From contig NZ_CP101416.1 in the NCBI RefSeq assembly GCF_027942295.1, forward strand, positions 3,768,501-3,832,500: DNA of 64,000 bases. The letters run 5' to 3'. Each line of letters begins with the position of its first letter. The stretch's first letter is position 1. The translations under genes and the position numbers were made by a program. This document shows, in pieces, positions 3,868 through 53,500 of this stretch. This stretch comes from Pseudanabaena sp. Chao 1811 (GTDB taxonomy: Bacteria; Cyanobacteriota; Cyanobacteriia; Pseudanabaenales; Pseudanabaenaceae). Below the pieces are notes generated by a model. That model saw only the letters and a program-made list of their open reading frames with translations, had not been told where the DNA came from and did no database searches.

Positions 3868-6800
3868 CTAGATCTCATTAATCAATTGTAACAACGCATC
3901 GGTGGAAACCTTGCCACTCATATCTGTACCTTCCAACAGGCTATCGGCAAGATCGCGCTTGTGATGGTGTAGATCGACGATTTTCTCCTCGATCGTTCCC
4001 TTTGCCACAAGACGATAAATTGTGACAGGGCGCTTTTGTCCGATGCGATGGGCGCGATCGCTTGCTTGATCTTCCACCGCAGGATTCCACCAAGGGTCCA
4101 TATGGATCACATAATCGGCAGCCGTGAGATTTAGCCCTGTACCACCAGCCTTGAGACTGATCAGGAACACATCACCTTCACCTGCTTGGAAAGCTTCTAC
4201 CCGTTTTTTGCGATCTTTGGCGGGAGTACTACCATCGAGGTATTGATAACTAATTTTTTGAGAATCGAGATAGTCACGGATGATATGCAGATGATCGACA
4301 AATTGGCTAAATACTAGTGCCTTATGTTTGTTATCTAGCAACTCACTGACGACTTCACCGAAAAGCTGAAGTTTAGAACTGGGTAAGGGAATATCGGGGC
4401 GTACTAGTTTGGTATTGCAGCAAGCGCGACGCAATTTCATGATTTCCGCGAGCACCTGTAAATGCTTTTGTCCTGCGTTGGCTGGGGTGTCGGCAAGTTT
4501 AGCGATCGCCTCACGACGGAGCGCTTCATAAAAGGCAAGTTCCTCTTTGCTGAGTTCCACTTGTAATGTAACTTCAGTGCGCGATGGTAACTCTTGCAAT
4601 ACTTGGTTCTTCGTGCGACGAAGAATGAAGGGCTGAATTAGCTTTTTCAATTGATTACGCGCTTCTCGATCCTGCGATCGCTCGATGGGGTTGGCATAGT
4701 TGGTATTGAAATTATCAAGGGAGCCAAGTAGTCCGGGGTTAATAAAGCGGAACAGATTCCATAACTCGCCGAGGTGATTTTCGATGGGTGTACCTGTGGT
4801 GATTAACTTGAAGCCACTTTGCAAATTCATCGCCGCTTGCGATCGCTTAGTTGCCGTATTTTTAATTGCCTGTGCTTCATCGAGAACAACGGTTTGCCAC
4901 TCTACTTTTGCTAGCATTTCACCGACTTCCTCTTGCTGCATCAAGCCATAGCTACAGATCACCATGTCAAAGGGTTGGAGATTGTCAAGCACCTTTTGGC
5001 GATCGCCTGTACCAAATACAATCACATTCAGAGTTGGCGCAAATTTGGCAGCTTCAGAAATCCAGTTCATGCAAACCGAAGTAGGCGCAACAATCAGGGT
5101 GGCTCCCTGAGGGGCGCGGGTGAGGATTAGCGCTAAAGATTGCAGGGTCTTACCTAAGCCCATATCATCAGCTAAGCAAGCACCCACACCCCAATGGGCT
5201 AATCTCGCTAACCATTGAAAACCTTCGATCTGATAATCGCGGAGATCGGCTTGCAAGGTTGATGGTAGCTGCGGCTCAAAGTTCCGCATTTCTTTGATTC
5301 TTTTAATATGGGCTTTCCAATGCTTATCGACTTTCAGATCATCAATTTCATCAACAAAATCTTCAAGGGCTAAAGCTGCTAAAGGATGGAATCTCGTGCC
5401 TTTACCATGCTTCTCCGATAGGCGACGGAACTCATCTAAGCGTTTGCGGAACTGTTGGGTTAAGGCGATAAACTGACCATCACCAATGGGAATGAAGCGG
5501 CTAGGCGTTTTGTCCAGCAATTCCAATAGGCGCTGCATATCAATCACTTGGTCATCACCGAGGCGTAACTCCCCTTCGGCAGCAAACCAATCACGGCTTT
5601 GATTGATCGACATACGGAAATCGCCAAAACCAGCACGATGACTGATTCGCATCTTTTCGCCTTCTGGCCATTCCAAAACAATGCGATCGCCTAAGGCTTG
5701 CAATTCTAGTAGGAGTTCCAAGCAAAACTCAGGATCATCAATGACCCATTCACTTTCCTCTTCTTCAAAATTGCTGAGGGTGGGACAAGCAGCGATCGCT
5801 TCATTGGCAAGTTTTTTCTCTTCTTTTAAATTCCTTGTCGCTTGCAAACGTTTACCATCGATTTCGGCAAGTACGGTTGCACCACCAGTCCCCGGACGAT
5901 AATAAGAGCCAGCATTAGCAAAGGGACGCGCAAGGATGGCAATTTTTAGACCATCCCCTGAGGGCAAAATATGCACATGGGGCTTGCTGTCCGATGGCAC
6001 TTCCTCCGCATCACTCACGCCACCGCCGATATCAGAATGTACCGTCACAATTGAAGAGATCGAATGAATCGCTTCGAGAACTTTATCTTTCGCGGCAACA
6101 GGAATTTCAAGACGATTTTTGCGCCCAATAATTTCGGTGATCCGCCGATGGGATTCATTCACCTGTGTAACTTTGAGGCGAGTAGGGCTTTCTTTGGTGA
6201 CAACAAAACTCTGACCATCCTTTAACTCTGGCGAAAACTCTAAAAATAGGCGATCGCCTTTTCCCGCCTTGACCAATAGTTCTGGTTCACCCTTGACGAT
6301 ATCTACACGAGTTGTGGGCGAGTCTTCCCAAAACACAAGCGGATGTCCAATTAAAGCGCAGATTGTCTCTTCATCAAATTCATATTGCGACTGTCCATAA
6401 TAGCCATAGGAGGAATAGGCTTGGATATGGGAACAGGCAATAATATCCTGTGGTGTTAGATAGGGAAACTCATGGCTATTTTCTTTGAGGCGTTTGAGAG
6501 CAATATTCCGTCCCGTGCTCCAGACTCCTTTAGCATTAATCTTCTGTTCCTTCGGCTGTACGGTATAGCCCCCCTTCACAAAGCTAATTAGCCATACTAG
6601 ACGCTGGGGTGAATTATTGGCTGCCTTGCTTGTCTCCTGTGGCGATTTGGTGAGATTGAGCAACGCATTAAGGCTCAGTTCCCAAGTTTCCCTTGGACGG
6701 ATGAGGTTGACAATTGTAGGGATTTGAGTCTCTTGGCGTAACTTTTGAGCGTGTTTTTGATGGATGGAATTAGGGGACAGTTCTCCTAAAAGTTCAGCAG

Positions 6801-8085
6801 TTTCCATTGAGAGCCAATGGTAGCCAGCGGTTACTGATTGTTTGAGTAATGGTTGTAGAACCCTTGATAAATCCACTCGCGCTTTTTCAGGGTTGACCCA
6901 ATAGAGACAAAGCGCACTAAAAAACACTTCTAAGCAATGGCTTTGGGTATGATCATGGAGATATTCATTACTGAGTAGATCCTTTTGAGGAATATCCCCC
7001 AATTGAAACTTCAAAACCCTTTGCAGTCTGCTATAGGTGATTTGCAACCAATGGTGAGTTTGCTTCACCATCAGTGCGGCATAACCTTCAGCTTCACGCA
7101 TACTCTCGGCTGTTCCCTCCTGAATCAGCGCTAGGATAAAAAACAATCCCGGTTCACCACTGAAATAGATTTGACGTTTACCTGTAGCTTTTCGGATCGA
7201 TTTGAGGGATAGGCGAAATTGTGTAATTGCTAAAGCGCGATCGCCTTTCAGAAAATGTAGCCAAGAGAGTAAGGCATTACCTGCCTCTTTGTAGTCACTG
7301 GACAGGCGATCATAGGCAGCTTGAGCAGTTTTTAAATCCGCACGCAATAGGCTTTGTTCGATTAATACCAATAGCAAGGGATCAGTGCAGCGATCGCTAT
7401 TTTCTTGAAAACTTCTTTGCAATAGGGCTAAAGCTTGATCGGTATTTTTTAACTTAAGCATTCCATTGCTAAGAATGGTGCTTAAGCCGACCTCATAAAA
7501 TGTTGAATCTAGGGTTTGAAACCAGTCTGGATCAAAAGGATTATTACAGATTTGAAATAGAATTGCATCTAAGGTGATTTTCTGTTGAGAATAGCCAAAT
7601 CGGTAGAAATCATCAAATTGCTTAGCAACAAAATCCACATCCTGCCGATAAATCCCAATCCTGACTTCGCGAACAAACTGTGATTCACTCCTGAAAGTAC
7701 GTGAACCTATCTTGCCGTAGGATGGTACTGGTATTTTTGCTTCGATGACTTCGACAATTTCTTCAAACTTTCCTTTCTGAATGGCATCGCGGACAGCAAT
7801 ATCAACCAACAACGAATTACATTGCACACCTTGAGAACGATCTTGATTGAGTAGATTTAACTTTAAGAGGCGATCAATATATGTTTTTAAAGCAATGGGC
7901 GATAGAGGCTTATCCTTATCCTTAACTCCAAAATAGATCAGGCAGTCTAGAATGACAGTACGATTCAGTGGTTCATAGGCGATCGCACAAGTGCGGATGA
8001 TCTGTTGCTCTAACGCTGACAATTTATGATAGAGAGATGTTAAGGTCTCGTAGAGTTTGGCAGAATCAACTTGGAAATCAGGCAT
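3868..8085 (-). CDS. SNF2-family DEAD/DEAH-type helicase with long helical N-terminal region
   Basis: The product is 1405 aa. The C-terminal ~470 residues form a complete SNF2 ATPase: Walker A ADDMGLGKT near 975, DEAQ box VVLDEAQAIKN near 1068, and motif VI DRAHRIGQKRP near 1347 followed by IYRLVAKGTIEEKI. The N-terminal ~900 residues start with a winged-helix-like segment, continue as helical repeat-like sequence, and then a beta-rich region; I see no SWIM zinc motif. SNF2 proteins translocate on double-stranded DNA and remodel bound proteins; in bacteria they include HepA/RapA and helicases of several defence systems. It is the first gene of the operon with Uma2, the small protein and CHAT-NTPase, with gaps of 9, 5 and 15 nt. 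HIP1 sites occur within it, so it is not a very recent arrival. Confidence 0.92.
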   Translation of the reverse strand: MPDFQVDSAKLYETLTSLYHKLSALEQQIIRTCAIAYEPLNRTVILDCLIYFGVKDKDKPLSPIALKTYIDRLLKLNLLNQDRSQGVQCNSLLVDIAVRDAIQKGKFEEIVEVIEAKIPVPSYGKIGSRTFRSESQFVREVRIGIYRQDVDFVAKQFDDFYRFGYSQQKITLDAILFQICNNPFDPDWFQTLDSTFYEVGLSTILSNGMLKLKNTDQALALLQRSFQENSDRCTDPLLLVLIEQSLLRADLKTAQAAYDRLSSDYKEAGNALLSWLHFLKGDRALAITQFRLSLKSIRKATGKRQIYFSGEPGLFFILALIQEGTAESMREAEGYAALMVKQTHHWLQITYSRLQRVLKFQLGDIPQKDLLSNEYLHDHTQSHCLEVFFSALCLYWVNPEKARVDLSRVLQPLLKQSVTAGYHWLSMETAELLGELSPNSIHQKHAQKLRQETQIPTIVNLIRPRETWELSLNALLNLTKSPQETSKAANNSPQRLVWLISFVKGGYTVQPKEQKINAKGVWSTGRNIALKRLKENSHEFPYLTPQDIIACSHIQAYSSYGYYGQSQYEFDEETICALIGHPLVFWEDSPTTRVDIVKGEPELLVKAGKGDRLFLEFSPELKDGQSFVVTKESPTRLKVTQVNESHRRITEIIGRKNRLEIPVAAKDKVLEAIHSISSIVTVHSDIGGGVSDAEEVPSDSKPHVHILPSGDGLKIAILARPFANAGSYYRPGTGGATVLAEIDGKRLQATRNLKEEKKLANEAIAACPTLSNFEEEESEWVIDDPEFCLELLLELQALGDRIVLEWPEGEKMRISHRAGFGDFRMSINQSRDWFAAEGELRLGDDQVIDMQRLLELLDKTPSRFIPIGDGQFIALTQQFRKRLDEFRRLSEKHGKGTRFHPLAALALEDFVDEIDDLKVDKHWKAHIKRIKEMRNFEPQLPSTLQADLRDYQIEGFQWLARLAHWGVGACLADDMGLGKTLQSLALILTRAPQGATLIVAPTSVCMNWISEAAKFAPTLNVIVFGTGDRQKVLDNLQPFDMVICSYGLMQQEEVGEMLAKVEWQTVVLDEAQAIKNTATKRSQAAMNLQSGFKLITTGTPIENHLGELWNLFRFINPGLLGSLDNFNTNYANPIERSQDREARNQLKKLIQPFILRRTKNQVLQELPSRTEVTLQVELSKEELAFYEALRREAIAKLADTPANAGQKHLQVLAEIMKLRRACCNTKLVRPDIPLPSSKLQLFGEVVSELLDNKHKALVFSQFVDHLHIIRDYLDSQKISYQYLDGSTPAKDRKKRVEAFQAGEGDVFLISLKAGGTGLNLTAADYVIHMDPWWNPAVEDQASDRAHRIGQKRPVTIYRLVAKGTIEEKIVDLHHHKRDLADSLLEGTDMSGKVSTDALLQLINEI

Positions 8086-8416
8086 ATCTAAAAGTTTGTA
8101 TTGTGATTAGAGAAAGTTGCGATCATTAATTCTTGGAGATAGATGGAGATAGATACTTAGGATATCCTGTGGTTATTTTTAGTTCATAGTGACTCAATTA
8201 GTTATGGTGCTTTTTATATTACGAAATATTAACAGCAACAAATATCTAGATTTCATCATAGTTCAAGATAGTTCAAGGTTTGGCAAGCTGATTTAAGTAT
8301 TTTCCTGTAAGAGCGCACAGTCAAATAAGAAACTGATGTTTGGTGGCGTGGCGAAAACAAAAAATCTGGTTCTTGATTAAATCTAGGTTCTAGAGATTAT
8401 TGAAGCTTGAAGTGTT

Positions 8417-8488
8417 TTTGGAAGCACTACTTCGTCAAGGTTTCAAAAATTTCTCTGGTTTTTAATTCAGCGTAACGCGCTGTAGTGT
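8417..8488. repeat. degenerate B-family hairpin element
   Basis: The right part, TTTCAAAAATTTCTCTGG followed by TTTTTAATTCAGCG and CGCGCTGTA, matches the right half of the better preserved copies at 38000-38083 and 53636-53713. The left arm is eroded and no longer pairs well. Confidence 0.5.
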
Positions 8489-8503
8489 CTATTTAATGCG
8501 TAC

Positions 8504-8521
8504 AATACTAGATCTAGTATT
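8504..8521. promoter_or_regulatory. 18-bp perfect palindrome upstream of the class V aminotransferase
   Basis: AATACTAGATCTAGTATT is a perfect dyad ending 27 nt before the ATG at 8549. The position suits an operator or a 5'-leader structure. No regulator is identified. Confidence 0.4.
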
Positions 8522-8548
8522 TAACCAAGCATTACAAGATTTCGACTC

Positions 8549-9703
8549 ATGGAAGATAAGTTGATGTTAATGATTCCAGGTCCAACACCTGTGCCTGAAC
8601 AGGCACTGTTGGCTCTGGCAAAAGCTCCGATCGGACACCGTAGCGGCGATTTTAGCAAGATCATGGCAGATGTGACTGCCAAGCTCAAATGGCTACACCA
8701 AACAACTAATGATGTATTAATCCTCACCGCTAGCGGAACTGGTGCGATGGAAGCAGGCATCATTAACTTTTTAAGCAAAGGCGATCGCGTCCTTGTTGGT
8801 GATAATGGCAAGTTTGGCGAACGCTGGGTCGAAGTCTGTCAAGCCTATGGCGTAAATGCTGAAGTTATCAAAGCTGAGTGGGGTAAGCCGCTAAATCCTG
8901 AAGATTTCCGTGTCAAGCTAGAGGCTGATACCAATAAAGAAATCAAAGCCGTAATCATTACCCATAGTGAAACCTCGACAGGTGTACTTAATGATCTTGC
9001 TACCATCAATCGCCATGTCAAAGCCCATGAAAAGGCTTTAATTATTGTCGATGCGGTAACTAGCTTAGGTGCGATTAATATTCCTATCGACGAACTCGGT
9101 TTAGATGTAGTCGGCTCTGGTTCGCAAAAGGGTTATATGATTCCCCCTGGATTAGGATTTGTGGCTGTTAGTCCCAAGGCATGGGAGGCTTATAAAACTG
9201 CCAACCTACCTAAGTTCTATCTAGATTTGGGCAAGGCGCGTAAGGATGCTGCGAAAAACTCTACCCCGTTCACGACTTCAGTGAATATGGTCATGGCTTT
9301 GCAGGCTTCCTTAGAAATTATGCAAAGGGAAGGTTTGGAAAATATCTTTGCCCGTCATTTGCGCCATCGTGATGCGACTCGTGCAGCAGTCAAGGCTCTA
9401 AATCTAGGGCTATTAGCTCCCGATGATGCTGCTAGTCATTCGATTACAGCGGTAGTTCCTCCCGAAGGATTAGAAGCAGAAAAGATTCGCGCCACGATCA
9501 AGAAGAAGTTTGATATTGTCATGGCTGGTGGTCAAGATCACCTCAATGGCAAGATCTTCCGCATTGGACATTTAGGCTTTGTCGGCGATCGCGATATTCT
9601 CACTGCAATTGCGGCTCTCGAAGCATCGATTTCGGCGCTTGGTTACACTAATTTCACCTCTGGTGCTGGTGTAAAGGCTGCGATCGAAGTTCTGAATCAA
9701 TAG
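8549..9703 (+). CDS. class V aminotransferase (alanine-glyoxylate / serine-pyruvate type)
   Basis: This 384-aa PLP enzyme has the class V fold: N-terminal IPGPTPVPEQ and GHRSGDF, then TASGTGAMEA, the Asp strand IIVDAVTSLGA, and the PLP-lysine context GSGSQKGYMIPPGLGFVAVS. Close relatives in cyanobacteria are annotated as alanine--glyoxylate aminotransferase, or by an old name, soluble hydrogenase 42-kDa subunit. The likely reaction is glyoxylate transamination in photorespiratory metabolism. The gene is monocistronic, preceded by a palindrome and followed by a strong hairpin. The ATG lacks a clear Shine-Dalgarno site, which is common in cyanobacteria. The exact amino donor cannot be read from sequence. 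Confidence 0.88.
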   Translation: MEDKLMLMIPGPTPVPEQALLALAKAPIGHRSGDFSKIMADVTAKLKWLHQTTNDVLILTASGTGAMEAGIINFLSKGDRVLVGDNGKFGERWVEVCQAYGVNAEVIKAEWGKPLNPEDFRVKLEADTNKEIKAVIITHSETSTGVLNDLATINRHVKAHEKALIIVDAVTSLGAINIPIDELGLDVVGSGSQKGYMIPPGLGFVAVSPKAWEAYKTANLPKFYLDLGKARKDAAKNSTPFTTSVNMVMALQASLEIMQREGLENIFARHLRHRDATRAAVKALNLGLLAPDDAASHSITAVVPPEGLEAEKIRATIKKKFDIVMAGGQDHLNGKIFRIGHLGFVGDRDILTAIAALEASISALGYTNFTSGAGVKAAIEVLNQ

Positions 9704-47404: not shown

Positions 47405-47626
47405 ATGATCAGTTCCCATGATTTAAAAACTTACATTGCAGGGGCAAAGCAACGCCAACGGCAAAAACAAATCTTGCTAGATGATCGCTATGAGCTTTTG
47501 CAGACTGTTGCTCAAAAGGGAGCAGAAATACTTAAAACTGATTTTGCTGCTCATAAAGTTTGGTTGTTTGGGTCTGGACTATGTCGTGATTTAATTCATA
47601 TGGAAACAATGGTGAGTAATGGTTAA
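47405..47626 (+). pseudogene. truncated MNT-type nucleotidyltransferase fragment
   Basis: The 73 codons resemble the start of small minimal nucleotidyltransferases (MntA/HEPN-MNT type antitoxins): a helical N-terminus, then HKVWLFGSG. The required catalytic Asp pair that should follow about ten residues later is missing; the frame ends in ETMVSNG after a deletion. The last 8 nt overlap the start of cobD. No HEPN partner is present. It is most likely a broken remnant, though translation through it could help express cobD. Confidence 0.65.
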
Positions 47627-48707
47627 TGATCTCAAGCAAGCATCGCGTCCAATTCATGGGGGAAATCGTCAATGGGCGGCGAGTATGGCTGGTATATCAC
47701 CAGAACAAATCTTAGATTTTTCGGCAAGTATTAATCCCCTTGGCACACCTAAATCAGCGATCGCTGCCATCCAATCCCATTTAACCGATCTCAGTCATTA
47801 TCCTGACCCCGAATATACATTACTCAGACAAGCATTAGGAAAGTTTCATCAACTGTCGCCAGAATGGATTTTGGCTGGTAACGGTGTGGCGGAGCTATTA
47901 ACTTGGGTGGGGCGTGATCTTTCGCAACTATCTTCAACGATTCTATTTACACCAGCCTTTACCGACTACTATCGCGCTCTGAAAACCTTTGATTGTCAAG
48001 TAGAAAGGTATCCATTTCTATTGAGAACTCAAGACGTAAGTTTTGATTCTGAACTGCCAGAAATTACGAATTCCCATACCAAAGGAATCTTGATCAATAA
48101 TCCCCATAATCCTACGGGTTACTTATTTTCTAGAGATAGTATCTTGCCCTATTTAGAGAGGTTTGCCTTGGTGGTGATTGATGAAGCTTTTATGGATTTC
48201 CTCACACCAGACCAGCAGCAAAGTTTAATTGATTTAGTTCCATCACATCCAAACTTAGTGATTTTGCGATCGCTGACTAAGTTTTACAGTTTGCCAGCGC
48301 TGAGACTTGGCTATGCGATCGCCCATCCCAAACGTCTGCAACGCTGGCAAGCATGGCGCGATCCTTGGTGTGTAAATAGTCTGGCAGTTGCCGCAGGGAT
48401 TGCTGTTTTAGAAGATGTGGAATTTCAGCAGCAAACATGGGACTGGTTAAAGCGGGCTAAACCGCAACTATTTACAGGCTTATCACAAATAGCAGGATTA
48501 AATCCATTACCAAATGCTGCAAATTATCTATTAGTCCAAACAGAAATATCAGGTTCACTTTTACAAAAGGAGTTATTGCAAAAAGATAAAATTCTCATTC
48601 GCGATTGTTTGAGTTTTCCAGAATTAGGCGATCGCTATTTTCGAGTAGCTGTACGTCTCGAACATGAAAATCAAAAATTAATAAATGGTCTATCACAACT
48701 CAGTTAA
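47619..48707 (+). CDS. cobD: threonine-phosphate decarboxylase (CobD-like)
   Basis: The 362-aa fold type I PLP enzyme has the CobD-type N-terminus HGGNRQWA and DFSASINPLGTP. Other features are NNPHNPTGYLFSRD, the Asp strand VVIDEAFMDF and the PLP-lysine motif SLTKFYSLPALRLGY near 222. CobD decarboxylates L-threonine phosphate to the aminopropanol linker of cobalamin; histidinol-phosphate aminotransferases are close relatives, but the HGGN start favours CobD. Its last ~209 bp are repeated, diverged, at 50496-50704, beyond the restriction-modification genes. The reading frame is intact, but its current 3' end may be an imported allele. There is no terminator directly after the stop. Confidence 0.85.
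   Translation: MVNDLKQASRPIHGGNRQWAASMAGISPEQILDFSASINPLGTPKSAIAAIQSHLTDLSHYPDPEYTLLRQALGKFHQLSPEWILAGNGVAELLTWVGRDLSQLSSTILFTPAFTDYYRALKTFDCQVERYPFLLRTQDVSFDSELPEITNSHTKGILINNPHNPTGYLFSRDSILPYLERFALVVIDEAFMDFLTPDQQQSLIDLVPSHPNLVILRSLTKFYSLPALRLGYAIAHPKRLQRWQAWRDPWCVNSLAVAAGIAVLEDVEFQQQTWDWLKRAKPQLFTGLSQIAGLNPLPNAANYLLVQTEISGSLLQKELLQKDKILIRDCLSFPELGDRYFRVAVRLEHENQKLINGLSQLS
48483..48691 (+). repeat. direct repeat, copy 1 (3' end of intact cobD)
   Basis: It aligns without gaps to 50496-50704 at a constant offset of 2013 bp. I count about 25 differences by eye. Most are synonymous, and the amino-acid changes are clustered at the very end. Confidence 0.9.
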
Positions 48708-48814
48708 CCCATTAAACTGCAATAGTGTATGGGGATATTGCCCAATCACTCACACCATCCAAAATACGAGCATAAAATCACCACAAAAAAGTAAAACATG
48801 ATCGCCAAATGCAT

Positions 48815-49420
48815 CTACTTTCTCCATTCGATATGTCCGTTAATATTAAAATCTTCAAAAGTGTTCAGGATTTTTATGCAAAAATCTTGTAGTTCCTGAT
48901 TGTTTTCTTTTTTAGCAAGTTCGTAGAGACGGATAAACATTTTTTTACCTGTTTCGGTTTGCTTAAGATTTTTCTTGAGGAAGTTATGCTGACTGCACAA
49001 AGTTTGACCGTTTTCAATGGTAGCTAATCCACCCATATCTTTAGGTTTAATATGATCAACGTGTAACTCAACTCCATTCTCTCGGCTTGCTCCACAGATT
49101 ACGCATTTGTAGCCATCTCGCCTTAAAATTTCTTTCTTTTGAGTACTTGTAAAATCTTGTTGCTGCTTATTTTGAGCATATTGAGGATCGTATTTATAAA
49201 TTCCTTTTGATATTTTCTGTAGGAAACCCCTTTGATATAGAGATCTAATTCCTCTGTCAGGATCTCTAAATATTTTTCCAGTACGTTCTAGATATGTTGA
49301 AGTGACCCAATCAACAACATCTTTAGTATGTATCTCAATATCAGGATGCATTTCAAAGTACTCCTTAATAATACTGATTTGAGCTAAACTTTGCTCTTTA
49401 GATTTATCGTTATTAGGCAC
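48815..49420 (-). CDS. HNH restriction endonuclease
   Basis: The product is about 201 aa. The start is GTG (VPNNDKSK), or TTG one codon earlier; AAGGAG lies 8 nt before the GTG. The N-terminal half looks like a winged-helix module (IISIIKEYFEMHPDIEIHTKDVVDWV, RSLYQRGFLQKISKGIYKY). The C-terminal half is an HNH nuclease: CVICGAS, ELHVDHIKPKDMGG, NGQTLCSQHN, with the Cys pair binding structural zinc. It overlaps the end of the methyltransferase gene by 8 nt, the usual arrangement of a type II restriction-modification pair. The specificity is unknown. The DNA is A+T-rich and has no HIP1 site. Confidence 0.88.
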   Translation of the reverse strand: MPNNDKSKEQSLAQISIIKEYFEMHPDIEIHTKDVVDWVTSTYLERTGKIFRDPDRGIRSLYQRGFLQKISKGIYKYDPQYAQNKQQQDFTSTQKKEILRRDGYKCVICGASRENGVELHVDHIKPKDMGGLATIENGQTLCSQHNFLKKNLKQTETGKKMFIRLYELAKKENNQELQDFCIKILNTFEDFNINGHIEWRK

Positions 49421-50420
49421 CAATTAATCTCCTTTTATCTAAAAAATCATCTAAAACAACTTTATGATTTCTTAATGAAGTAATTAAGTTTATAGCAACT
49501 TGTCGAACAACTGGAACTGCAACCGAGTTCCCAAATTGTCTATACATTTGGGTTCGAGAAACAGGGATAACAAAGCTTAAAGGATATCCCATGATCGATT
49601 TACATTCATTTTCACTAAGCAATCTAATTCCAGTTTCTCCATCTTTAACAAAGGTTCCTGTCAATCTCTGGATTTTGTGATAGGTAGAGCATAACGTTTT
49701 AACTTGAATCTTAGAATTCCGATCAATTAATTCTGGTTTTCCATCATCTAGTTTAAATAGATACGAATCTTGTAAGTGTTTAGATATTGAATAACCAATT
49801 ATATTTTCTTCTACATAAGAGCCTATATATTCTTTATGTTTAATAGGCGGAGGAAACATAAAATTAGGCACATCTCTAGAAATATCCTCAGATATACCTA
49901 CTATAAATATTCTTTTCCTAACCTGTGGTACACCATAGTCTTTAGCATCTAAAACACTCCAAAACACATGATATCTAACATCAGGTTGACTAAAAAAAAG
50001 GTATTGTCCATTTATAGATATAGATAGAGTGTCTAATATAATTCTTAGGGTTTTTCCACCATCATGTGTTATTAGTCCTTCAACATTCTCTAAAATAAAA
50101 GCTTTAGGGTTTTTCTCTTTTAATATCTTTACTACGTCATAAAATAAAGTACCTTGTGTGGGATGTTCAAATCCTTCACGTTTGCCAATTGAACTAAACG
50201 GTTGACAGGGAAAACCAGCAGTCAATATATCAATATCTGGAATTGAGGATGGTTCAATCTTTGTAATATCTCCGTAGGGAATATCGCCAAAATTAGCTCT
50301 GTATGTCATCTGTGCATATTTATCCCACTCAGAAGAAAATACACATTCTCCTCCTATACTCTCTAGAGCGATTCTAAATCCGCCAATACCAGCAAATAAA
50401 TCTGCAAAGACAAAACTCAT
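49413..50420 (-). CDS. DNA (cytosine-5-)-methyltransferase
   Basis: The product is about 335 aa, starting at the ATG of MSFVFADLFAGIGGF; an in-frame TTG 66 nt upstream would add non-conserved residues. The C5-methylase motifs are in order: I DLFAGIGGFRIALE, IV GFPCQPFSSIG with catalytic Cys72, VI ENVEGL (111-116), VIII QVRKRIFIVGI, and X RQFGNSVAVPVV. It methylates C5 of cytosine in an unknown target and protects the host from the co-encoded HNH nuclease. Absence of HIP1 sites and lower G+C than the flanks point to recent acquisition. The gene pair lies between two copies of the cobD 3' end. Confidence 0.94.
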   Translation of the reverse strand: MSFVFADLFAGIGGFRIALESIGGECVFSSEWDKYAQMTYRANFGDIPYGDITKIEPSSIPDIDILTAGFPCQPFSSIGKREGFEHPTQGTLFYDVVKILKEKNPKAFILENVEGLITHDGGKTLRIILDTLSISINGQYLFFSQPDVRYHVFWSVLDAKDYGVPQVRKRIFIVGISEDISRDVPNFMFPPPIKHKEYIGSYVEENIIGYSISKHLQDSYLFKLDDGKPELIDRNSKIQVKTLCSTYHKIQRLTGTFVKDGETGIRLLSENECKSIMGYPLSFVIPVSRTQMYRQFGNSVAVPVVRQVAINLITSLRNHKVVLDDFLDKRRLIGA

Positions 50421-50495
50421 TGTTATTTTTAAATCTCTATCACTGTTTACTATACACGCTATTGATTTATCAATGCGATCACCCAATCATGCACC

Positions 50496-50720
50496 TCATA
50501 AATATCAGGATTAAATCCGTTACCAAATACTGCAAATTATCTATTAGTTCAAACAGAAATTGCAGGTTCGCTTTTACAAAAGGAACTATTGCAAAAAGAT
50601 AAAATTCTCATTCGCGATTGCCTAAGTTTTCCAGAATTAGGCGATCGCTATTTTCGAGTGGCTGTGCGTCTAGAACATGAAAACCAGCAATTGCTGAAAG
50701 CTCTAGTTAAAAATGTATAA
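50496..50720 (+). pseudogene. displaced 3' end of cobD (second copy)
   Basis: About 74 codons are open from GLNPLPNTANYLLV to LLKALVKNV and a TAA stop, matching the C-terminus of the intact cobD at 47619. It has no start codon or upstream coding part. A terminator hairpin follows 14 nt after the stop, so this copy looks like the original gene end left behind when the restriction-modification cassette arrived. Confidence 0.88.
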
Positions 50721-50734
50721 CAGCCTAACCAAGC

Positions 50735-50766
50735 AAATAAAGAGGGACATAAGTCCCTCTTTATTT
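50735..50766. terminator. bidirectional hairpin between the cobD remnant and valS
   Basis: The arms AAATAAAGAGGGAC (50735-50748) and GTCCCTCTTTATTT (50753-50766) close an ATAA loop. It lies 16 nt from the valS stop codon and 14 nt from the cobD-remnant stop codon. Confidence 0.85.
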
Positions 50767-50782
50767 AAAAATTACTTGAAAA

Positions 50783-53500
50783 TTACTTGCCTTGTAACTG
50801 GGCTAAACGTGCTTTGAGAATCTCTTGCTGTTTTAGGGATTCTTCCAACTCAGCCCTTGCCGTTGCCACAACTTCAGGAGGTGCTTTTTTGATATAACCT
50901 TCATTGTTTAATCGACCTTGAGTAGAAGCGATCGCCCCTTCAAGTTTCGCTAGAGTGCGTTCCAATTTTGTAACCAATTGACCGATATCAACCACACCAA
51001 CCAGCGAGACAATTACCTGAATCGTACCAACGACACCTGCGATCGCTTGCTCAGTTGCGGATGCATCGACAGTCGCCACAACTGCTAAATCTTCAACCCT
51101 TGCCAAATCGAGAATATAGCTTTGTCCTGCTTCGAGGAGACTGCGTTCGCGATCGCTATCGGATTGTAAAATCGCCTTGACCTTGGCACTAGGCTTAATT
51201 TCAGCCTCAGCACGAAGATTGCGAATTGTGCGAATTGTGCCAATCAATAAATTGAATTGTTCTTCTAATTCTTCGTTGATATAGCTGGTATCAATTTCAG
51301 GATAAGGTTGAATTGCTAGCACAGGGCGATCGCTAGATGGTTCGCTCGTTCCGTAAGTGAGTAATTGCCAAATCTCCTCAGTGACATGAGGCAAGAATGG
51401 ATGTAAAAGGCGCAAAATACCATCAAGGACAAATCTGAGAGTTTGCTGTACGGTTTCGCGAGAAGTGGGATCGGCGGATTCTTGTAAACGGGATTTGACT
51501 AGCTCGATATACCAATCGCAGAAATCGCCCCAGAAGAATTCATAGATGCTTCTCGTTGCTTCGCCTAAGCTATAGGCATCAAGCTGTTCGCGGACTTGCA
51601 ATACAGTTTGAGCATAGCGCGACAAAATCCAGCGATCGGCAAGTTCTAACTTTTCAGTGCTAATCATGGCGGAGCCATGATTAGCACTGAGGTTCATCAT
51701 TACAAATCGCGACGCATTCCAGAGCTTATTCGCGAAGTTTCTGGCAGTCTCTACGGTTGTGGATTCATCGGTTTTGCGATTGTAATCAAGACGAATATCT
51801 TGACCTGCTCCCGTTACTTCCTTAACGAGGGAATAGCGCAACGCATCGGTTCCATACTTATTAATCAGCACTAACGGATCGATGCCATTATTCTTCGATT
51901 TGGACATCTTCTGATTATTCTCATCGCGCACCAGTCCATGAATATAGACCGTATTAAAAGGCATCTTGCCTGTAAAATAGCCTGCCATCATCGTCATCCG
52001 CGCTACCCAGAAGAAGATGATGTCAAAACCTGTAACAAGAACACTAGTAGGATAGAAAGTTTTCAAATCCTGCGTTTCTTCAGGCCAGCCAAGGGTCGAG
52101 AATGGCCATAAACCTGACGAAAACCATGTATCCAACACATCAGGATCGCGTTCTAGCTTAACATCTTCGCCAAATTTAGCTTTTGCCTGTGCATAGGCTT
52201 CTTCTTCCGTTCTCGCTACAAAAATTGAACCATCGGGAGAATACCATGCAGGGATCTGATGTCCCCACCACAACTGACGGGAAATACACCAATCCTTAAG
52301 GCGGATCAACCAATCGCGATATACCTTACCCCAGCGATCGGGAACAAAGGTAGGTGAGTTCTGCTTATCAAATTGCTCTAGGGCAAAGTCTGATAGGGGC
52401 TTAATCTTCACAAACCATTGGATCGATAGCAATGGTTCAACGGGAACTTTGCCACGTTCCGAATAGGGAACGGTGTGATTATAATCTTCAATCTTCTCTA
52501 ATAAGCCCAGTTCATCCAACTTCTTCACAACATTCTTACGCGCCACAAAGCGATCTTGACCTTCAAATTCGCCACCATTGGCATTAATTGAACCATCTTT
52601 ATTGAGAATATTGATTAAGGGCAAGCTATGGCGTTGTCCCATTTCAAAGTCGTTCGGGTCATGGGCTGGTGTCACCTTGACACAGCCGCTACCAAAAGCT
52701 TTATCCACATAGCGATCGCCAATGATCGGAATCTCACGATTCATAATTGGCAACATAATTGTTTTGCCAATCAAATGCTTATAGCGATCGTCTTCAGGAT
52801 TTACGGCTACGGCTGTATCACCTAACATGGTTTCGGGGCGAGTAGTTGCGACTACTAAATAACCCGAACCATCGGCTAAGGGATAACGGAAGTTCCAAAG
52901 ATGACCTTTGACCTCTTTATTGTCAACTTCGAGATCAGAAACCGCAGACTGAGATTCAGGACACCAGTTGACCAGATATTCACCCCGATAAATTAGCCCT
53001 GCTTCATAGAGTTTGACAAAGGCTTCGGTAACGGAATTGGATAAGCCTTCATCCATCGTAAAGCGTTCCCTTGTCCAGTCTGCCGAGACCCCAAGGCGGC
53101 GCAGTTGCGAAACAATCGTTCCCCCTGATTCAGCTTTCCACTTCCAAGCCCTTTCTAGAAACTTTTCGCGCCCAATTTCTTGATTGGTTTTACCTTCAGC
53201 CTTAATTTGTTTATCAAGAATCGTCTGCACGGCGATACTGGCGTGGTCGGTTCCAGGGAGCCAGAGGGTATTCAACCCACGCATACGGTGATAGCGAATC
53301 AAGATATCGATCAATACTTCCTGAAAGGCATGACCCATATGTAGACTACCCGTGACATTGGGCGGTGGAATCATGATGCAGTAGGGCTCTTTATCACTTT
53401 GACTCTCTGCTACAAATACGCCACTTTCCTCCCAATATTTTTGCCACTTGGCTTCAGATTCGAGAGGATTATATTGTTTTGGAAGTTCGTTCGTACTCAT
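50783..53500 (-). CDS. valS: valine--tRNA ligase
   Basis: The 905-aa class I synthetase has the HIGH-type motif [14 protein letters not shown] near 48-61, an editing domain in the middle, and the [12 protein letters not shown] motif near 530. The C-terminal ~70 residues form the coiled-coil arm of ValRS ([23 protein letters not shown]). It charges tRNA-Val and clears misactivated threonine. It is monocistronic with a terminator shared with the cobD remnant. The ATG of [10 protein letters not shown] is supported by the usual ValRS start [14 protein letters not shown] soon after. Confidence 0.97.

Follow-up and report, generated by a model that had tools for sequence, protein, structure and literature searches.

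A restriction-modification gene pair between two cobD ends in Pseudanabaena: probable entry by one-sided recombination with a related strain's DNA

The window analysed here is a 64,000-nt stretch of Pseudanabaena sp. Chao 1811 (contig NZ_CP101416.1, positions 3,768,501-3,832,500, forward strand), in which a restriction-modification (RM) gene pair lies between two directly repeated 3′ ends of cobD, the vitamin-pathway gene for threonine-phosphate decarboxylase. The favoured model, which we consider probable, is that a foreign cobD end and an RM module entered through homologous recombination on one side and illegitimate closure on the other. The analysis showed that the repeat arms resemble alleles, that their tails match different lineages, that a relative has an empty site, that the module is bracketed by repeats, and that a second case exists with a near-match at its joint. 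Comparisons were made in a genus sample of 26 genomes, consisting of the window's own (G000) and 25 relatives (G001-G025); the record titles of the matching loci mostly name Pseudanabaena.

The two repeat arms resemble alleles of cobD

The direct repeat comprises 48483-48692 and 50496-50705, which align over 210 nt without gaps, with 24 mismatches and a spacing of 2013 bp (BLAST E 2e-74, far above chance), in agreement with the gapless repeat of the cobD end described in the initial annotation. Copy 1 (48483-48692, + strand), read as an imported donor cobD end from the repeat and arm comparisons, lies inside the full-length cobD (47619-48707, +; NCBIfam TIGR01140 above cut-off), a gene that we read as a chimaera of a native 5′ part and a foreign 3′ part. 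Copy 2 (50496-50720, +), read as the displaced native end, has a tail like that of G021, an in-frame TAA at 50499-50501 and no start, and finishes at its terminal stop codon (50718-50720). Between it and valS (50783-53500, minus strand, identified by Pfam) is a terminator-like hairpin (50735-50766, +), recognised from its sequence. In G021 a hairpin occupies the equivalent place after cobD, and valS is again the right neighbour.

The two arms differ in 22 of 70 codons, 14 silently and 8 nonsynonymously, corresponding to 0.42 synonymous (dS) and 0.05 nonsynonymous (dN) differences per site by Nei-Gojobori counting. Either arm compared with five other species gave dS of 0.34-0.72. Neutral simulation on copy 1 produced a mean of 16-17 nonsynonymous codons, against the 8 observed; as few as 8 were reached in none of 20000 simulations without bias and in 2 of 20000 with a transition bias of 3. 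In the central 60 codons, 3 nonsynonymous codons were found where 11-12 were expected (0/20000 as low), the ends holding the other 5. At 18 of the 24 differing sites both states are present in other genomes, three states being private to copy 1 and three to copy 2.

The gene tails were compared over 50 bases in the 15 of 25 relatives in which the anchor motif was found. The tail of copy 1 matched best with G004 (43 identical, score 33.0) and then with G008 (43), so that 48681-48707 (+) is of G004/G008 type, while the best match for copy 2 was G021 (43/50). The two copies matched each other at 35/50 bases (score 15.5). Over its last 69 aligned columns, copy 2 agreed with G021 at 95.7% of positions and with none of nine other rows, including copy 1, at more than 88.4%. 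Because the tails match different lineages, copy 2 looks native, belonging with valS, and copy 1 looks foreign. On sequence comparison, the arms are probably two alleles and not copies of one target. Most likely copy 1 came in from outside and copy 2 is the native end, shifted to the right, a direction that we infer.

Some of the same comparisons weigh against an allelic origin. The sequences compared are short. When all 210 bp are considered, the identity of copy 2 to G021 (90.5%) barely exceeds that to G004 (89.5%), the nearness to G021 being confined to the last third and the tail; copy 1 resembles G020 (91.4%) and G004 (91.0%) about equally. The branch joining copy 2 with G021 received support of 76/84 only, and a tree with the two copies as sisters was not rejected by the approximately unbiased (AU) test (p 0.114, alignment of 198 columns). 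The AU result would suit an insertion with long target duplication, as in Helicobacter pylori, whose arms diverged later; the anatomy fits as well, with its RM cargo, long direct repeat, empty site and lack of a recombinase. We nevertheless judge this explanation very improbable, since the differences are mostly silent though copy 2 lacks a start and soon runs into a stop codon, both states recur in other species at most of the differing sites, and the tails point to different lineages. The target duplication proposed in the initial annotation was therefore not borne out: the arms differ as the functional alleles of two species do, in silent changes and lineage-specific tails. Its wider view of RM mobility holds for a mobile pair at the cobD end without a recombinase of its own, and fails for the arms as a duplicated target.

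Empty site and left boundary of the foreign cobD sequence

An empty site, predicted earlier as one cobD end followed by the terminator and valS, was found in G021, which lacks an insert at this place and has no further cobD end. With the insert disregarded, cobD is bordered on its right by valS in just two of the 26 genomes, G000 and G021; the others have different sequence 3′ of cobD, three contigs stopping within 0.5-1.3 kb. G021 carries an orthologous pair elsewhere, and orthologous pairs stand at other sites in relatives, as would be anticipated from the suggested search for the same pair with different flanks.

In its 5′ part, cobD clusters with G020 and G021 (support 95/93), and in its 3′ part it diverges from both. 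Maximum-chi-square breaks were placed in G000 at 48243 against G020 (permutation p 0.012) and at 48334 against G021 (p 0.023), after which divergence approximately doubles; these breaks, of modest weight, define a possible left crossover zone at 48243-48334. Over 48279-48482, G020 and G021 are 92-95% alike, and G000 is 85-92% identical to either. This suggests, with a break test that is itself modest, that the imported DNA begins some 150-240 bp to the left of the repeat. In that event a portion of the resident cobD would have been exchanged, without any duplication.

The RM pair and its borders

Two recognisable genes lie between the arms, both on the minus strand, and Pfam matches confirmed the content first proposed for the insert. 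One encodes an HNH nuclease, presumed to be the restriction endonuclease, at 48815-49420 (open reading frame (ORF) to 49423; start probably GTG at 49420; Pfam HNH E 5e-8), whose best PDB sequence match had an E of 2e-4. The other encodes a C5 cytosine DNA methyltransferase at 49413-50420 (ORF to 50486, start taken as 50420; Pfam DNA_methylase E 6e-91, NCBIfam dcm), which matched M.HhaI among PDB sequences at E 2e-66. By gene content the pair is a type II RM system, with cleavage and methylation activity presumed. HNH orthologs in Pseudanabaena-type loci showed 75-88% identity in the main segments and stood beside orthologous methyltransferases; the pair is intact in several relatives, and the HNH gene is absent or broken in others. 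The ORF list of the insert held the pair and short spurious ORFs and no third gene of transposase or integrase size, consistent with the earlier remark that neither was visible.

Composition agreed with the A+T-richness noted before, GC content being 33.3% in the insert vs 42.2% in the window. Equally low values occurred in 12 of 1245 overlapping insert-sized stretches of the window, and 10 of the 12 overlap the insert. HIP1 (GCGATCGC) is a motif of cyanobacteria, according to the accessible parts of PMC4390886 and PMC6604393. Its absence between the arms was also confirmed: none of the window's 132 HIP1 sites falls within 48635-50641. This is weak evidence alone. The gap of 2013 is the second largest in the window and three others reach 1.86-1.99 kb, and HIP1 absence as proof of foreignness was dropped because of these gaps of similar size elsewhere. 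A plasmid or phage vehicle was likewise discarded: at E <= 1e-60 the matches of the methyltransferase comprised 62 plasmid and 10 phage records, each with <60% identity, in a set from which records very near the window are possibly missing.

Elsewhere in the sample, the orthologous pair (partial in L214) occupies one common site in four genomes (loci L209, L211, L212 and L214), with no flanking gene-end repeats. This site is presumably between pyrB-like and trmJ-like genes. In L205 the pair lies in the same neighbourhood but in another gap.

The module is bordered by repeats related to HIP1. On the left, a HIP1-derived stretch at 48736-48812 (+) contains the motif with two mismatches at 48736, and 74 query bases of it matched G004, G005, G003 and G019, with E from 1.4e-8 (G004) to 1.2e-5; these matches are intergenic repeats in the relatives. 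On the right, a unit in the left one's orientation at 50477-50499 (+) has one mismatch to GATCGCCCAATCANNCAC at 50477-50494. With up to three mismatches allowed, GATCGCCCAATCANNCAC has six matches in the window against 0.41 expected, and the two best are the two borders of the pair. Homology of the window's pair to relatives stops near 48800 on one side and at most at 50486-50489 on the other. The right joint between imported module and native cobD was placed at 50490-50500, between the end of module homology and the beginning of cobD homology at 50496-50500. A search for the donor with the spacer 48700-48812 found no cobD-linked match and led to the repeat family.

A second case at an ATPase gene

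Fifteen loci with the HNH/methyltransferase pair or its remains (the window and L204-L217) were each compared with themselves for flanking repeats. Gene-end repeats flank the pair in two, the window and L206, a metagenome-assembled contig of G005. The notion that such repeats accompany every RM insertion was rejected on this count; the other nearby repeats were hairpin-like, array repeats or partial methyltransferase copies.

In L206, a gene for an ArsA/Get3-type ATPase (NF050088) extends to 5476. Its end region, 5298-5519, is found again at 8031-8254 (92.4%), and next comes an ndhO gene (Pfam NdhO). Between these arms are two small ORFs without family matches, the orthologous methyltransferase and an interrupted HNH frame. 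The arms differ in 9 of 56 codons, 8 of them silently; relatives are about equally close to both, so that the native arm is not distinguished. Immediately left of the right arm, approximately 30 bp resemble the start of the gene that lies 3′ of the ATPase gene in six relatives (G011, G022, G004, G019, G018 and G016), and at the right joint this stretch meets the ATPase sequence at a near-match of about 12 bp. Such an anatomy is expected if the donor pair lay between the ATPase gene and its neighbour, with homology on the left and micro-homology on the right.

The same ATPase gene is directly followed by an orthologous methyltransferase gene in G017 (L208 7756-9843), and by a C5 methyltransferase gene of another family in G010 (G010:C7:65762-67502). 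No second ATPase end was among the matches listed for these two genomes. The 3′ side of the ArsA/Get3-type ATPase gene is a possible insertion hot spot.

Model of entry and alternatives

In the favoured model, a donor fragment from another Pseudanabaena lineage would have carried the 3′ part of cobD together with the repeat-bounded RM module. One end of the fragment would have paired inside cobD by homologous recombination, rebuilding the gene with a foreign 3′ end. The other end would have been attached illegitimately, at minimal or absent homology, to the resident gene some 210 bp short of its end, leaving the native end as a fragment in front of valS. The module's border repeats, degenerate on both sides in a genome with no exact copy of the motif, count in favour of this model. 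Entry may have been as naked DNA by natural transformation; a gene with a Competence domain (PF03772) is present in the genome, and we take it to be comEC-type.

The second side could have been closed by linear end-joining, or by a single crossover after circularisation. The comparisons do not discriminate between linear and circular closure, and a foreign stretch to the left of the repeat would favour illegitimate closure. A single crossover with a circular molecule, either an excised module or a re-circularised fragment, is counted as a variant within the favoured model and seems to us unlikely. The direct repeats bounding the module could release such a circle, and in a conjugation experiment in the accessible text of PMC3240628, a partial-duplication PCR product was obtained from 56 of the 60 exceptional clones, 14 being sequenced. 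A circle predicts native cobD to the left of the repeat, but 48339-48482 of G000 is only 85-91% like either close relative, a modest point.

Further observations have to be set against the favoured model. Among the 26 genomes no donor with cobD adjoining this module was found, and 13 of the 15 pair loci have no flanking gene-end repeat. The right joint of the window shows no clear microhomology, in a comparison from which the donor flank is absent. The break test was unspecific, with p <0.05 for four of six pairs, two of them without G000, namely G020-G021 (48607, p 0.022) and G021-G002 (48631, p 0.025); G000-G002 and G020-G002 gave no break (p 0.18).

Such mosaic signals of cobD in several pairs would also accord with a true target duplication whose copy 1 was later overwritten by allelic recombination with a foreign cobD, which likewise makes copy 1 foreign and leaves copy 2 native. 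We regard this sequence of events as very improbable. Copy 1 keeps to the other type right up to its final codons, and the poorly aligning tails would have offered a later tract little homology on the right side; moreover, the G005 case shows the identical pattern.

Orphan cobD ends

When the 26 genomes were searched with the last 74 residues of cobD, a query that can reveal the 3′ part only, 26 full genes and four orphan pieces were recovered, the latter being copy 2 of G000 and pieces in G013, G024 and G008. A full-length query returned the G000, G013 and G024 orphans again, with no 5′-part orphan among the matches listed. The G008 piece begins exactly at a HIP1 site and stands beside a PvuII-type system (L191 420-2641) made up of the endonuclease gene (PF09225, E 3e-61), a controller-like helix-turn-helix gene and an N4/N6 methyltransferase gene. 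In G013, where an internal cobD piece is also present, the two pieces (L189 ~2200-2410) have a NACHT-domain gene on one side and an OMP-decarboxylase-type gene on the other, and their cuts are at HIP1-like sites. HIP1 may serve as short homology for illegitimate joints. Beside the G024 piece no defence gene was named.

Orphan ends did not appear to be a general feature, and that idea was rejected: four were found for cobD vs at most one listed for each of four control genes, a small sample in which three (valS, thrC and hisD) are window neighbours. For valS and thrC there were none among the matches listed, contig-end pieces in G005 and G015 being uncounted; hisD gave, in a complete list, one 29-residue piece at a contig edge; and the ATPase gene gave one, the right arm in G005. 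The names hisD and thrC are our assumption. A PvuII-type donor beside cobD was also discarded. The endonuclease occurs in 2 of the 26 genomes and was unseen downstream of intact cobD in a scan of the first 90 residues of at most five ORFs per genome.

Orphan cobD 3′ pieces in four of 26 genomes, one beside an RM system, could be taken to suggest site-specific integration at the cobD 3′ end, by an integrase since lost or acting from elsewhere. Its outcome would be the same, an element-supplied 3′ end and a displaced native end. Yet no integrase-sized ORF was found in the insert and no common core was noticed at the joints; in G005 a different, unrelated gene is the site of an orthologous pair with this anatomy, and the imported cobD may start before the repeat. 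Of the explanations weighed, this appears to us the least probable.

HIP1-derived repeats and toxin-antitoxin arrays in relatives

The repeat at the borders of the pair belongs to a family found in the relatives as a tandem unit of approximately 27 bp between small genes (consensus of 135 copies). A near-identical motif, GATCGCCNAATCANNCAC, has no exact copy in G000 and is present in 21 of the 26 genomes; a reversed control gave none. In one array (L265, 4521-10533), ten ORFs were scanned, of which seven matched toxin or antitoxin families, one matched DUF5615 and two had no match. Across 11 array stretches (L265, L266, L255, L256, L257, L258, L259, L261, L267, L268 and L269), 135 repeats share a strand and only 1 has the opposite orientation.

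Gene orientation was followed for ORFs of 55-350 residues in the array spans, ORFs holding at least two repeats being excluded. All 22 protein families common to at least two genomes keep their strand relative to the repeats, the families differing in which strand; linkage of toxin with antitoxin, and perhaps kinship of some arrays, make the number of independent units smaller than 22. Order varies. Families 8/9 precede families 5/6 in G019 and follow them in G024 and G002, and families 7/0 precede families 1/2 in G003 and follow them in G022.

Repeats with at most two mismatches occur at 1.56/kb near the pair or its remains vs 0.17/kb far away (10 vs 43 matches). Five of these 10 are from G006, and one, in G014, is apparently in coding sequence. 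In G000, G006 and G022 the pair is on the minus strand relative to the repeat. Taken together, the arrays and the borders raise the tentative possibility that the pair is a cassette of a genus-wide and possibly recombinase-free system, in which toxin-antitoxin and RM modules are separated by oriented 27-bp HIP1-derived repeats, reshuffled with their polarity kept, and carried from strain to strain on the 3′ ends of adjacent housekeeping genes. Against a link of the pair with the repeats, 11 of 16 pair entries have no array repeat nearby.

In G022 (L204), a partial second methyltransferase 5′ end lies ~1.2 kb from the full pair, with an array repeat at its edge (6309-6517 and 7726-9414). In several relatives the arrays are bordered by what we take to be a GMC-type oxidoreductase gene. 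An array beside that gene in G000 was sought and discarded, none being present at G000:C1:4190000-4208000 (L272), where the ORFs are presumably insertion sequence-like.

Comparison with known systems

RM insertion between long repeats is already known. Insertion of RM genes with long target duplication was reportedly described by Nobusato et al. in 2000 (Gene 259:99). Helicobacter pylori cases in which long direct repeats of host DNA enclose RM genes are cited in PMC1643837, PMC3031569, PMC4978471 and PMC3154945, as far as their accessible parts show, and the entry of RM genes without a recombinase between such repeats was described in Helicobacter as a possible novel mechanism of gene mobility. 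The window resembles these insertions in having RM genes between long host direct repeats and a related genome with a single copy. It differs in that its arms are read as an imported and a native allele, where copies of one target are a defining feature of such insertions, and in the genus-specific repeat at the module's borders. What is new is the allelic reading, together with the module's delimitation by repeats. Keyword searches of the open literature found no statement of a donor/recipient reading of RM repeat arms, which may stand in the original papers. Should the arms be donor and recipient alleles, one-sided recombination with a related strain's DNA would suffice, and a dedicated insertion reaction would be superfluous. 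The arm test, comparing silent with replacement changes and the lineages of the arms, would then be applicable to the published cases.

The nearest experimental counterpart is homology-facilitated illegitimate recombination, reported for Streptococcus pneumoniae, Acinetobacter baylyi and Pseudomonas stutzeri in the accessible text of PMC3240628. Two products are given there. In one, closure was illegitimate and accompanied by deletion; the other, which was commoner, consisted of partial duplications put down to single crossovers with circles that had lost part of the homology. In the cases described in that text, as in the model favoured for the window, one side is homologous and the other is joined at little or no identity, which would account for a foreign insertion together with a rebuilt gene. 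Those events were made in the laboratory and generally deleted resident DNA, whereas the window case is natural and the native gene end would have been retained.

A comparable exchange of gene ends is found at icd, where prophage e14 brings its own 3′ end to the gene and pushes the resident end aside; e14 has an integrase and an att core. On the allelic reading, the window shares the supplied and displaced gene ends with e14, but it has no visible integrase or att core.

In chromosomal integrons, cassette arrays have oriented repeats and a permuted order with polarity kept. The toxin-antitoxin arrays of the relatives are alike in oriented repeats and permuted order; their repeat is a tandem 27-bp HIP1-derived unit rather than an established attC site. 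No statement on a HIP1-type repeat beside toxin-antitoxin genes, or on cassette shuffling in cyanobacteria, was met in what keyword searches of the open literature returned. The repeat-separated arrays point to a way in which such modules could be kept in store and rearranged. HIP1 itself forms the core of the relatives' repeat, and here it lies within an extended, oriented, tandem unit beside toxin-antitoxin and RM genes.

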